DNA from: Rheinheimera sp. D18 | Lineage (GTDB): Bacteria > Pseudomonadota > Gammaproteobacteria > Enterobacterales > Alteromonadaceae | Direction of reading: 5' to 3' | Length of the DNA: 64,000 nucleotides | Assembly: GCF_004345025.1 (NCBI RefSeq) | Contig: NZ_CP037745.1 | Coordinates: 1,488,001 to 1,552,000 of the forward strand | Shown: in pieces, positions 5,859-10,984 of the stretch | How the letters are laid out: the number at the start of each line of letters is the position of its first letter | Numbering within the stretch: the stretch's first letter is position 1 | Position numbers and translations under genes: made by a program | Notes under the pieces: model-generated | The model's database searches: none | What the model was told of the DNA's origin: nothing | The model's input: only the letters and a program-made list of their open reading frames with translations

Positions 5859-5934
5859 GCGAGTATAGCTCAGCTGGTAGAGCGCGACCTTGCCAAGGTC
5901 GAGGTCACGAGTTCGAACCTCGTTACTCGCTCCA
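5859..5934 (+). tRNA. glyW: tRNA-Gly(GCC), copy 1
   Basis: 76 bases with acceptor GCGAGTA/TACTCGC, anticodon loop TTGCCAA (GCC), TTCGAAC in the T loop and encoded CCA. First member of a Gly-Cys-Leu cluster after pgsA, matching the E. coli glyW-cysT-leuZ order. Confidence 0.98.
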
Positions 5935-5964
5935 ACTCTTTAAAAGAGTTAAAATTGTTTGATT

Positions 5965-6038
5965 GGCGGGTTGGCAGAATGGCCATGCAGCGGATTGCAA
6001 ATCCGTCCATCTCGGTTCGACTCCGGGACCCGCCTCCA
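5965..6038 (+). tRNA. cysT: tRNA-Cys(GCA)
   Basis: 74 bases with acceptor GGCGGGT/ACCCGCC, anticodon loop TTGCAAA (GCA), T-loop TTCGACT and encoded CCA. It lies between the Gly and Leu tRNAs. Confidence 0.98.
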
Positions 6039-6078
6039 TATCACAGTTTATAGTTGTATAGTAAAACTAAAGTTGTCT

Positions 6079-6165
6079 GCCCGGGTGGTGAAATCGGTAG
6101 ACACAAGGGATTTAAAATCCCTCGCTCGAAAGGGCATGCCGGTTCAAGTCCGGCCCCGGGCACCA
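6079..6165 (+). tRNA. leuZ: tRNA-Leu(UAA)
   Basis: 87-base class II tRNA with acceptor GCCCGGG/CCCGGGC, anticodon loop TTTAAAA (TAA), a long variable arm, T-loop TTCAAGT and encoded CCA. Confidence 0.98.
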
Positions 6166-6182
6166 TTTAGTACCAGATTTAT

Positions 6183-6258
6183 GCGAGTATAGCTCAGCTG
6201 GTAGAGCGCGACCTTGCCAAGGTCGAGGTCACGAGTTCGAACCTCGTTACTCGCTCCA
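6183..6258 (+). tRNA. tRNA-Gly(GCC), copy 2
   Basis: Identical over all 76 bases to the tRNA-Gly at 5859. It sits 17 bases after tRNA-Leu and ends the operon. The E. coli cluster has only three genes here, so this is an extra copy. Confidence 0.98.
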
Positions 6259-7767: not shown

Positions 7768-8529
7768 TTAATCGTCAAAGCTATTAGTTAACGCGGTATT
7801 GTCTTGGTTAATATTATCCGAGGTAACAAGTTGTTGTTCTAACATACGAATTTCAATAGGCTCTAATAAACGCCATTGACCAGGTTTTAAACCCGCTACA
7901 CGAATATGCATAATGCGAGTGCGTTTTAAACTTTGTACTTCATAGCCCAGATATTCACACATACGCCGAATTTGTCGGTTTAAACCTTGAGTTAAAATAA
8001 TAGTAAAGCTTTGCTTTGAGCGCTGTTGAACGGTGCAAGGTAGGGTGATGGTATCTAAAATTGGCACGCCACGGCTCATTTGTTGAATAAAACGCTCCGT
8101 AATCGGCCGATTTACCGTAACGACGTATTCTTTTTCGTGAGCATTACCGGCGCGGAGAATTTTATTAACGATATCACCATCATTGGTAAGAAAAATAAGT
8201 CCATCAGAGGGTTTATCTAAACGGCCAATAGGGAAGATACGTTCGGGGTAGCGCACTGCGTCAATAATATTTCCCTGTATATGACGTTCAGTAGTGCAGG
8301 TAATACCCACGGGTTTATTGTAAGCAAGATACACTCGTTTTGGTTTGGCTTTTAATGGTTTACCATCAATCAGTACCTGATCTTGTTCCGATACTTTTAA
8401 ACCAACTGGCGCAACTGCACCGTTTACCGTTACTTGGCCATTTTCAATAAATTTATCGGCCTCGCGCCGAGAACAAAAACCGGTGTCACTAATAAATTTG
8501 TTTAAGCGAAACAAGGTGGCGTCAGACAT
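7768..8529 (-). CDS. rluF: 23S rRNA pseudouridine synthase RluF
   Basis: Isomerises U2604 (and, in E. coli, a tyrosine tRNA uridine) to pseudouridine. An S4 RNA-binding domain (RLNKFISDTGFCSRREADKFI) opens the protein, followed by the RsuA-family catalytic core with the aspartate in FPIGRLDKPSDGLIFLT and the GLNRQIRRMCEYLGYEV segment. E. coli RluF shares long stretches, including KILRAGN-HEKEY. I start at 8529 (MSDATLFRLNK, 253 residues); the open frame extends 31 codons upstream through the next gene's terminator, which is unlikely to be coding. It lacks the long basic tail of the E. coli protein. Confidence 0.93.
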   Translation of the reverse strand: MSDATLFRLNKFISDTGFCSRREADKFIENGQVTVNGAVAPVGLKVSEQDQVLIDGKPLKAKPKRVYLAYNKPVGITCTTERHIQGNIIDAVRYPERIFPIGRLDKPSDGLIFLTNDGDIVNKILRAGNAHEKEYVVTVNRPITERFIQQMSRGVPILDTITLPCTVQQRSKQSFTIILTQGLNRQIRRMCEYLGYEVQSLKRTRIMHIRVAGLKPGQWRLLEPIEIRMLEQQLVTSDNINQDNTALTNSFDD

Positions 8530-8607
8530 AAATACACTAAATTCCAATAGGGTCAACGTGTGCCGATAGTTTAGGGGGTAAGACTGCTTTTCGCTACAAC
8601 ATATAAA

Positions 8608-8637
8608 AAAAAGGCTTAACATTGTTAAGCCTTTTTC
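8608..8637 (-). terminator. Terminator of the tubulin-like gene
   Basis: Stem AAGGCTTAAC/GTTAAGCCTT with a 3-base loop, followed on the minus strand by eight T residues, 15 bases after the stop codon. A strong intrinsic terminator, which suggests the tubulin-like gene is transcribed alone. Confidence 0.88.
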
Positions 8638-8651
8638 TCGGTTATCTCAAT

Positions 8652-10820
8652 TTACTTAGCTGCGTCTGACTGCGAGCTAGGCTGTGCATTAAGTGAAATA
8701 ACTTTTGTCTTACTAATTTTATGGCGATAAATTTCACGCAGGTATTTAATGGCCTTTTTAACGCTGTCGCGACTTAAGCGTATATCGTTAATTGATACAA
8801 ACTTATCTTTATTATGAATAAGTTCACGATACTTTTTCTCGTACATTGGTTTGATAGCGTACCAGTTGGTATCAAGAATTTTTGCTGGGTTTTCAAATTC
8901 ATTTAGCATGGTGTCAAGCTGTGCTTCGTCAAATTTGTCTGAACGAATAAAATTAAGCATTGCTTGGTCTAATTGCTCGTCAAAGCGGTAATTATCTTTG
9001 GCAAAACAGCGCTTAATAAAAGCAACGATTAAAGTTAAAAAATCATCGCTTAAACATGGGCTTTTTACAATTAGTGTTGTGAGCGAAATATTGGCAGACG
9101 CGCCTATTACCAACGCATAACGTTTTAATGTGGTGTTAGGAAATAACGAGTTTAGGTGCGACTTTAACCGGTTAAGATCCATGTAAGATAACTTGTAGTC
9201 TTTGGGTAATGACACAATAGACACTACAGAGGAGCAGTTTTTAAAGAAGTGAAGATCGTTCAATTCTGCAGCGTTGTAGCCGTTTTTTACATAGTTAGCC
9301 AAGGTTTCGCGATAACTGCTCGACTCTATAGGCAACAAACTTATGCCTTCTATGGCTTGTGTCACTTTGTTAAAGTGCGGTAAATCAATAGAGCGGAAAA
9401 ACAAATCATCAATATTCAAGCTGGTGCCAGTTTTTTTATCGGTCGCGTTAGCGTCAGGCGGAATAACTGACTCAGCATAAGCTATGGCAACCGGGCCAGC
9501 TAAACTCATAAACAGGTCGTTGGCGTCTAGCCGAATAGTTTCGCCGATGTCGATGCCGGCACGACGGAAATAGTTCTCGTCGTAATCTGTGGTTACTGCT
9601 TGCGCTGTTAAAATATTAAAAATTTGCTGAGAAATATATTGGTTAGCATATTTTTCCATGGCGTTAACATCGATATGTTGGATACCACCATCATCAGTTT
9701 CTTCGGCATAGCGCATAATGTCGTTTGAAATCAGCATCATCGCGTTCCAAGGGCGAATGCGATGCATAACACTAGATTCGCTGGTTTCTTCGTTATCAAA
9801 GTTATACGAAAAATCCCATTCTTCAGCTAAGTACTTACATAATAAGCGGCCAGCATTAATATGCAGCGCTTCTGACATTTCGACACCGTGATCCGAAATG
9901 TTCGGTAAAATACAAATACCGCTGGTAAATATAGGTTCAAAGACAAAAGAGTGGCCGCGATTTTCTTCATCTTCGACTAAGGTGCGGGTATCAAAGGTTT
10001 TGCTCATATAGGCATATTGCTGAGCTAAACCAAATTCAGAAGCCATGCCGGAACCTGTACCACCGCCAGCGCTGAAAATATAGAAATACAAACGCGATTG
10101 GTTGGCTTTTATGCCACAGGAGTCGATAAGGTAAGAGTGAATATTCTTCCAATCGGTGTTGGCAAAACGCTGCGTATCTTTATTAAGAATAATTTTAGCT
10201 AAATATTGTCCCAAAATAGGGGCGTTACCGGCGCCACCGGCATGAACTTCAGATAAGTCCATAATTTTCATTTTGGTGTAATCATGCAAAAAGCCGCTGC
10301 TTTCACCTTTATGTGAAAAGCGAATACGGCCTTCGATATCTTTATCTAAGTCGCCAAGCATGACTAAAGGCTCAATTAAGAATACCGGCTTTAACGCTTG
10401 AGAATTAGATAAATGCAGGCTGCGCTTAATCCAGCGCATGGGTTGGTATTCTTGCTCGCGAGATTGCTTTTCTTCGTTATTAAATTCGTTCAGGTAAAAG
10501 TTGCGCGCGTTATACACTAAAGAGGCGACATCCAGTGCGATATTAGAACCACAGCGGCCTAAGCCAATAAGGCAGACTGATGGAAAATTCTGCTGCTTAC
10601 GGCTTTCAATTTCATTATCTGGATTTTGAACCGGAAATACACTAGTACGTAAGGCGTCTAGGTTGGTTAATATTTTGTTGAGATCACGCTCGGTAAAATA
10701 CATATAACGATCACTAGCAAAAGAAGGCGCAGCCACTGTTGTAGTGACTTTCTTCACCGCTGTTTTTACGGCAAGCACATCCTCTTGGGAATTAAATTCG
10801 CTTTTTATTTTGTTGTTCAT
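8652..10820 (-). CDS. Tubulin/FtsZ-superfamily GTPase-like protein, large, solitary
   Basis: 722-residue protein with the loops of the tubulin/FtsZ nucleotide-binding fold in the right order: T1 GLGRCGSN (~86-93), a T3-like GGAGN (~195-199), the signature T4 loop GGGTGSG (~252-258), and a T7-like loop with LDANDLF, giving a DxxD pair (~432 and 435) like FtsZ NxDxxD but with arginine in place of the asparagine. A ~75-residue polar N-terminus and ~250 residues of unassigned C-terminus (ending in a basic stretch) flank the core, making it twice the size of FtsZ. It is not FtsZ, TubZ or CetZ by length; the Tubulin_2/FtsZ-like groups implicated in membrane remodelling are the nearest I know. ATG at 10820 has AGGAAG seven bases upstream; an adjacent in-frame TTG is less likely. 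It is a single-gene unit. Function unknown. Confidence 0.8.
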   Translation of the reverse strand: MNNKIKSEFNSQEDVLAVKTAVKKVTTTVAAPSFASDRYMYFTERDLNKILTNLDALRTSVFPVQNPDNEIESRKQQNFPSVCLIGLGRCGSNIALDVASLVYNARNFYLNEFNNEEKQSREQEYQPMRWIKRSLHLSNSQALKPVFLIEPLVMLGDLDKDIEGRIRFSHKGESSGFLHDYTKMKIMDLSEVHAGGAGNAPILGQYLAKIILNKDTQRFANTDWKNIHSYLIDSCGIKANQSRLYFYIFSAGGGTGSGMASEFGLAQQYAYMSKTFDTRTLVEDEENRGHSFVFEPIFTSGICILPNISDHGVEMSEALHINAGRLLCKYLAEEWDFSYNFDNEETSESSVMHRIRPWNAMMLISNDIMRYAEETDDGGIQHIDVNAMEKYANQYISQQIFNILTAQAVTTDYDENYFRRAGIDIGETIRLDANDLFMSLAGPVAIAYAESVIPPDANATDKKTGTSLNIDDLFFRSIDLPHFNKVTQAIEGISLLPIESSSYRETLANYVKNGYNAAELNDLHFFKNCSSVVSIVSLPKDYKLSYMDLNRLKSHLNSLFPNTTLKRYALVIGASANISLTTLIVKSPCLSDDFLTLIVAFIKRCFAKDNYRFDEQLDQAMLNFIRSDKFDEAQLDTMLNEFENPAKILDTNWYAIKPMYEKKYRELIHNKDKFVSINDIRLSRDSVKKAIKYLREIYRHKISKTKVISLNAQPSSQSDAAK

Positions 10821-10944
10821 CAATCTACTTCCTGTCTCTGTCGAGGCGATACTGCTAGTAATATATGTTACGTTCAGTATTAAAGGTAGTAGTAGTTTGA
10901 AATTAAGCTAGCGTTAAGAAAGTTAAAACAAAATTGCAGCAACT

Positions 10945-10984
10945 GAGCATACTATATAGAACTTGAATTTTACATAGTATGCTC
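10945..10984. repeat. Perfect 11-bp inverted repeat after the ETF-QO gene
   Basis: GAGCATACTAT at 10945-10955 and ATAGTATGCTC at 10974-10984 form a stem that can extend by two or three more pairs. It begins ten bases after the ETF-QO stop and lies 125 bases before the tubulin-like start codon. No T-run follows in either direction, so it is not a typical intrinsic terminator; it may protect the 3' end of the mRNA or be an operator. Confidence 0.7.

Follow-up and report, generated by a model that had tools for sequence, protein, structure and literature searches.

The window analysed here, a 64,000-nucleotide stretch of the Rheinheimera sp. D18 genome (3.3 Mb, a single contig), contains a real gene for a large tubulin-like protein of the type named FtsZl2, and we put the probability that this family member works as a self-contained, GTP-dependent filament outside the divisome at roughly 0.6. 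Judged by its loop motifs and profile matches, the protein belongs to the tubulin/FtsZ superfamily and fits FtsZl2 wherever this can be tested, with no new family called for.

8652..10820 (-): FtsZl2-type tubulin-like gene, 722 a.a (open reading frame and purifying selection)

The open reading frame extends over 8652-10823 on the (-) strand, with AGGAAG just 5′ of the start codon (ATG at 10820), and the 722-a.a product has no TM segment (best 19-residue mean of 1.5). A search of the whole genome gave a single match to the family, and one Pfam-recognised FtsZ (382 a.a) is present at another locus. The coexistence with a normal FtsZ is supported, in line with an earlier sequence-only reading of the same DNA, which had inferred a filament separate from cell division. 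The same reading had described a protein about double the size of FtsZ, which is correct (722 vs 382 a.a), although a large family of this kind had already been named in 2010.

Putative nucleotide-binding loops and family membership

The loops assigned or proposed in the protein, together with a candidate helix near its C-terminus, are as follows:

10542..10565 (-): T1-like loop GLGRCGSN, residues 86-93 (inside the Pfam Tubulin match; intact loci)
10218..10238 (-): T3-like loop GGAGNAP, residues 195-201 (motif position, intact loci, profile comparison)
10047..10067 (-): T4 signature GGGTGSG, residues 252-258 (motif position, intact loci, profile comparison)
9717..9734 (-): proposed T6 LISNDI, residues 363-368, with N366 (read by eye; the Tubulin_2 match ends at 366; no support in the FtsZ profile comparison)
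9513..9533 (-): proposed T7 RLDANDL, residues 430-436, with D432/D435 (motif position; FtsZ T7 alignment no better than shuffles)
8709..8771 (-): candidate basic amphipathic C-terminal helix, residues 684-704 (top amphipathic-plus-charge score in the protein)

The T1, T3, T4, and T7 motifs had been described as lying in tubulin order and spacing. Their order holds, as the ordered set occurred in 0/20,000 composition shuffles (GGGTG(S/T)G by itself also in 0/20,000), but their spacing does not; T1-T3, T3-T4, T4-T6, and T6-T7 are 109, 57, 111, and 67 residues apart, compared to 52, 36, 57, and 45 in the FtsZ of the same genome. Each of the four motifs is intact in all 80 loci inspected (the best 80 of 527 confirmed contig loci). 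The T1 loop of FtsZ has glycines where the window protein has R, C, and S.

The two top Pfam matches of the window protein by bits are Tubulin (15.9 bits, residues 82-118, around T1) and Tubulin_2 (15.3 bits, E 0.012, residues 195-366). The profile search suggested earlier finds both families, with the window protein below the curated cut-offs (33 and 27 bits, respectively). Among 18 aligned members, Tubulin is matched by 18/18 (best E 8e-4) and Tubulin_2 by 17/18 (best E 6e-4), making these the commonest of the 14 Pfam families matched; the next, DUF6562 (9/18 members), was taken as a chance match, as were hits to ribosomal L23. Neither sequence nor profile searches of the PDB found a convincing match, and family and PDB searches gave none for the C-terminal region.

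We also compared the family with an alignment of 32 FtsZ proteins, using column shuffles (60 and 150) as the control. The T3-T4 region scored above all shuffles in both runs (60/60 and 150/150). The T1-T3 region scored above 145/150 shuffles but in the wrong register, its own T3 being aligned to the T1 of FtsZ, so that T1 is not supported by this comparison. For T6-T7-H8, 141/150 shuffles were equally good (48/60 for T7 in the 60-shuffle run), and for the C-terminal part 12/150 (41/60 in the 60-shuffle run); the best local alignments of both lay outside the expected register in the 150-shuffle comparison. A whole-length hhalign alignment (E 0.006) paired T1, T3, and T4 with those of FtsZ but went out of register beyond them. 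A good-looking alignment by eye of residues 530-586 with the FtsZ C-terminal domain failed the shuffle control and was dropped.

The superfamily membership claimed earlier thus stands on the T3-T4 region and on the Tubulin and Tubulin_2 matches across the members. Common descent of the nucleotide-binding core with FtsZ is supported around T3-T4 and, via weak Pfam matches, around T1, while T7 and the region beyond are proposed from reading by eye and from the 2010 paper. The T7-like DxxD pair noted earlier (D432/D435) is a conserved motif, though its identity as T7 is no better than chance by profile, and the earlier remark on arginine replacing asparagine depends on that assignment.

The FtsZl2 family was named after PFL_1302 of Pseudomonas fluorescens Pf-5, having been found through the GGGTG(S/T)G signature. 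As described in the part of the paper dealing with the family (Makarova & Koonin 2010, PMC2875224), its members have this signature and a T1 loop, with T6, T7, and H7 present, and a C-terminal region of ~300 a.a that differs from those of other families, has no coiled coil, and is of mixed alpha/beta type. The same part of the paper (PMC2875224) places FtsZl2 only in Proteobacteria, without conserved gene neighbors, and reports finding no clue to its function, filaments nevertheless being predicted. The window protein matches this description in being Proteobacterial, in its GGGTGSG and T1-like loops, in inserts between the loops, in its companion FtsZ, in a long C-terminal region without known relatives (286 residues follow T7), and in the lack of conserved neighbors; no difference was found. 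Strain Pf-5 is now classed as P. protegens. In P. protegens FD6, four DNA matches to the GGGTG(S/T)G pattern were found, with FtsZ and the orthologue of the window protein as the only real proteins among them; the third match reads into an in-frame stop, and the fourth lies in a 94-a.a open frame taken as a non-gene. As the sole non-FtsZ protein with this signature, the FD6 orthologue likely corresponds to PFL_1302. In the literature searched, largely non-subscription papers, no experimental work on FtsZl2 was found and the family name occurred only in the 2010 computational paper. A text match in PMC7327170 proved to be the mutant name FtsZL272E, and PMC9871819 sets Tubulin_2-type sequences aside.

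Other superfamily members fit less well. FtsZ shares the T3-T4 region and probably the T1 and T7 loops, but the window protein has larger spacings and a Tubulin score far below cut-off, and a C-terminal peptide pattern of the DIPxFL kind is absent from the family (0/18 members). The FtsZl1 family is linked through the weak Tubulin_2 match at residues 195-366; its vWA, kinase, GTPase, and OmpA neighbors, reported alongside the genomic case for membrane remodeling (PMC2875224, section on FtsZl1), are missing beside the window gene. TubZ/PhuZ and CetZ share the superfamily signature and are about half the size of the window protein, and TubZ is plasmid- or phage-borne with a partition operon, whereas the window family is chromosomal, with no phage or plasmid copies found.

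The helix at residues 684-704 is a candidate anchor. In the relatives, the 40 residues past the SINDIRL motif were scanned for a basic amphipathic stretch, and the best stretch fell in this helix in 33/35 rows (the window protein counted twice), peaking beside it in L004 and L023; L052, without the SINDIRL anchor motif, was left unscored. Most of the score comes from charge (+6), which leaves lipid binding, nucleic-acid binding, or plain packing as possible roles for the helix.

Genomic context and transcription

Two possible transcript ends flank the gene:

8605..8639 (-): intrinsic terminator, 16-pair stem and T run, directly 3′ of the tubulin-like gene (terminator scan)
10945..10984 (-): inverted repeat GAGCATACTAT...ATAGTATGCTC, just past the stop of the upstream gene (sequence reading; absent from the terminator scan output)

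The terminator scan returned five sites in the region compared to 3.2 expected, and the stem at 8605..8639 is by far the longest. The inverted repeat is possibly the transcript end of the upstream gene. The 170-base gap 5′ of the tubulin-like gene gave no sigma-70-like promoter match, and four promoter-like sites occur in the region vs 7.6 in shuffles; the absence of a promoter match in the gap means that the gene may be co-transcribed with the upstream etf-QO. No LexA, sigma-54, or PhoB-like patterns were found in the ~250 bases upstream of the gene in 14 loci (with the first in-frame ATG as start). Single-gene expression, as proposed earlier, is likely given the terminator behind the gene, neighbors common only to related genera, and presence or absence of the gene on its own, the lack of a promoter match being the point against it.

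The neighboring genes encode an RluF-like protein (just below the NCBIfam cut-off), a DASS transporter (named from NCBIfam), an FAD-dependent oxidoreductase, and an ETF-beta (the best of several matches below cut-off). The oxidoreductase, so labeled by NCBIfam, is presumably ETF-QO. No vWA and GTPase operon of the FtsZl1 kind lies in the neighborhood. As listed, the RluF-like frame (7768-8622, (-)) begins within the 8605..8639 terminator, so its true start is probably a later ATG ~31 codons on. Elsewhere in the window are two tRNA-Ser(TGA) genes (2105-2195 and 2384-2474, (+)) and a Gly-Cys-Leu-Gly tRNA cluster (5859-6258); the genes ahead of this cluster we take to be uvrC/pgsA-like.

The suggestion that a neighbor survey might reveal a conserved partner found no backing. 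Across 32 loci (crude open reading frame calling), neighbors are common only to related genera, besides large common families (such as RND-type transporters) at varying positions, and different genus groups carry the gene at different chromosomal sites. Within the genus, the gene lies beside etf-QO in 19/21 carriers, the two being on separate contigs in the others. Nine of the ten non-carriers have the etf-QO locus; rluF directly adjoins etf-QO in six of these, one (L203 of G1015) has the gap between the two filled by an aldo/keto reductase gene, and neither is seen within 1.5 kb in two. An aldo/keto reductase gene also occurs directly or one gene behind the tubulin-like gene in Alkalimonas and R. 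soli. As etf-QO and rluF adjoin in 6/9 non-carriers where carriers have the gene, an operon partner is unlikely, and the FtsZl2-type gene is an independent unit, which extends the statement in PMC2875224 that FtsZl2 has no conserved neighbors.

Distribution, conservation, and descent

All genomes were sampled within the phylum of the window. Matches occur in 30/295 genomes and 13/99 genera of the order sample, 27 of them intact (leaving out G017, with 32% identity and probably of another family, and the broken G009 and G152); in 59/295 genomes and 17/52 genera of the family sample, a few being partial or split; and in 21/31 genomes of the genus itself. The class sample yielded 2/369 genomes (that of the window included) and the phylum sample 9/398 (that of the window and one broken copy included). 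In a genus inferred to be Pseudomonas, 100/149 genomes have a match, 97 apparently full length (leaving out a 24% match in G1134, a partial one in G1083, and a split one in G1091). The best 80 of the 527 confirmed contig loci all bear gammaproteobacterial names, the nearest named loci among them being Rheinheimera, Arsukibacterium, and Alkalimonas. Genomes carry one copy each, except G1232, of doubtful purity, with two (C13:8756-10852 and C7:4276-6372), possibly an assembly or purity effect. Decayed copies with stop codons were seen in L029 and L139-L141 (G009) and in L030 (G152), other sampled members of the same genera being intact. Missing from most sampled genomes and decayed in some, the gene is dispensable; its distribution is patchy and mostly single-copy, with gain and loss as a lone gene. 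Within the genus, the 21 carriers have larger genomes than the 10 non-carriers (4.2 vs 3.7 Mb, p 0.001, relatedness ignored).

Where present, the gene is very strongly conserved and under purifying selection. Relative to Rheinheimera aquimaris, 73 changes fall on first, 29 on second, and 372 on third codon positions over 722 codons, with 63 amino-acid changes (9%), while the etf-QO-like (82/549) and rluF-like (39/258) neighbors diverge more (15% of protein positions each). Invariant columns run along the entire length beyond a variable N-terminus and are not confined to interface motifs. Identity to the window protein is 76-80% in Pseudomonas and 82% in Cellvibrio, compared to 64-73% in other families of its own order. 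Between P. protegens and the window genome, the tubulin-like protein is 80% identical and FtsZ 69% (218/314). In the tree, Cellvibrio falls inside a Rheinheimera-Alishewanella-Paraglaciecola group (support 85/82), and the Pseudomonas group and other families branch from one unresolved fork. Together, these identities and the tree placement hint at some transfer between lineages. A general rule of slower evolution than FtsZ is contradicted by a same-family copy (L005) with only 73% identity, where two same-family FtsZ proteins from other genomes show 80 and 86%.

Predicted mechanism and alternative readings

Read most plausibly, the protein is a predicted GTP-dependent filament or switch that is self-contained and stands apart from the divisome, with a self-anchoring filament as the most attractive form and a non-polymerising switch as the main rival. 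In the filament, GTP would be bound through T1/T3/T4, subunits would stack head to tail, and D432/D435 in the T7 loop of one subunit would supply the missing part of the neighboring subunit's GTPase site in the manner of FtsZ, with GTP turnover making the polymer dynamic. Recruitment to the Z-ring by FtsA/ZipA is improbable, since the FtsZ-type C-terminal peptide is missing. The family-specific C-terminal ~135 residues, with the basic amphipathic helix at their end, may instead attach the polymer to the membrane, to nucleic acid, or to a component of the core cell, and no operon partner would be needed for action. Both filament formation and membrane remodeling had been put forward as inferences by the sequence-only reading; of these, filaments are also predicted for FtsZl2 in the 2010 paper, while the remodeling case in its relevant section concerned FtsZl1 (PMC2875224). 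A fuller version, which we hold to be doubtful, is a one-gene cytoskeletal module, in which the basic helix would be the filament's own anchor, the gene would be gained and lost singly in unrelated Gammaproteobacteria, and the target would be some core component that they all share; contacts with this target would then account for the tight constraint along nearly all of the chain.

Somewhat unlikely, but still a tentative possibility, is a non-polymerising GTPase of tubulin fold that acts as a nucleotide-dependent switch or sensor, its large inserts and C-terminal region binding a partner encoded elsewhere. The enlargement of every inter-motif spacing relative to FtsZ would suit such a protein, as would a T7, the loop for hydrolysis across the interface, that carries R in place of the usual N and that profiles do not recognise; the invariant columns likewise fit many protein contacts. 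Against this stand the filaments predicted by the 2010 authors in their account of FtsZl2 (PMC2875224) and the proposed T7 aspartates, intact in the 80 best loci, though with so many columns invariant the latter say little.

It is improbable that the protein moves DNA, either as a chromosomal relative of the TubZ-type plasmid and phage segregation filaments or as a domesticated mobile-element gene. Patchy presence, differing chromosomal sites among genus groups, and the hint of horizontal movement given by the P. protegens orthologue (80% identical, compared to 69% for FtsZ) all point that way, but no match was found in 50,697 phage and 72,556 plasmid records, none of 34 pattern matches in viral contigs was confirmed, and no constant partner adjoins the gene. 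Structure prediction was uninformative on the fold, with AlphaFold models of the full-length protein (18-sequence alignment) and residues 78-453 (30-sequence alignment) reaching pLDDT values of 32.4 and 32.3, respectively, probably owing to too little divergence among the aligned sequences (76-96% identity to the window protein); a Foldseek search with the latter, low-confidence model gave no match at E <= 0.001 and no tubulin among the 50 matches listed out of 82. Glycine loops arising by convergence on another fold are a very improbable source of the tubulin-like motifs, for while only T3-T4 stands out in the FtsZ profile comparisons and the AlphaFold models are too low in confidence to show a fold, the motif set is ordered beyond all 20,000 shuffles, no other Pfam family is matched by as many members as Tubulin and Tubulin_2, and an HHpred result for PFL_1302, independent of the present analysis, places that protein with the tubulins (PMC2875224, section on FtsZl2).

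A large tubulin-like family was already known, as FtsZl2; new here are the purifying selection, the patchy and mostly single-copy distribution, the absence from the phage and plasmid records searched, the neighbor pattern, and the presence or absence of the gene on its own. The predicted filament concerns a strongly constrained tubulin relative in easily grown bacteria, including several Pseudomonas species, and because close relatives naturally differ in whether they carry the gene, its function is open to direct testing. Should the prediction hold, common Gammaproteobacteria would possess a second chromosomal cytoskeletal filament, which would be new to cell biology.
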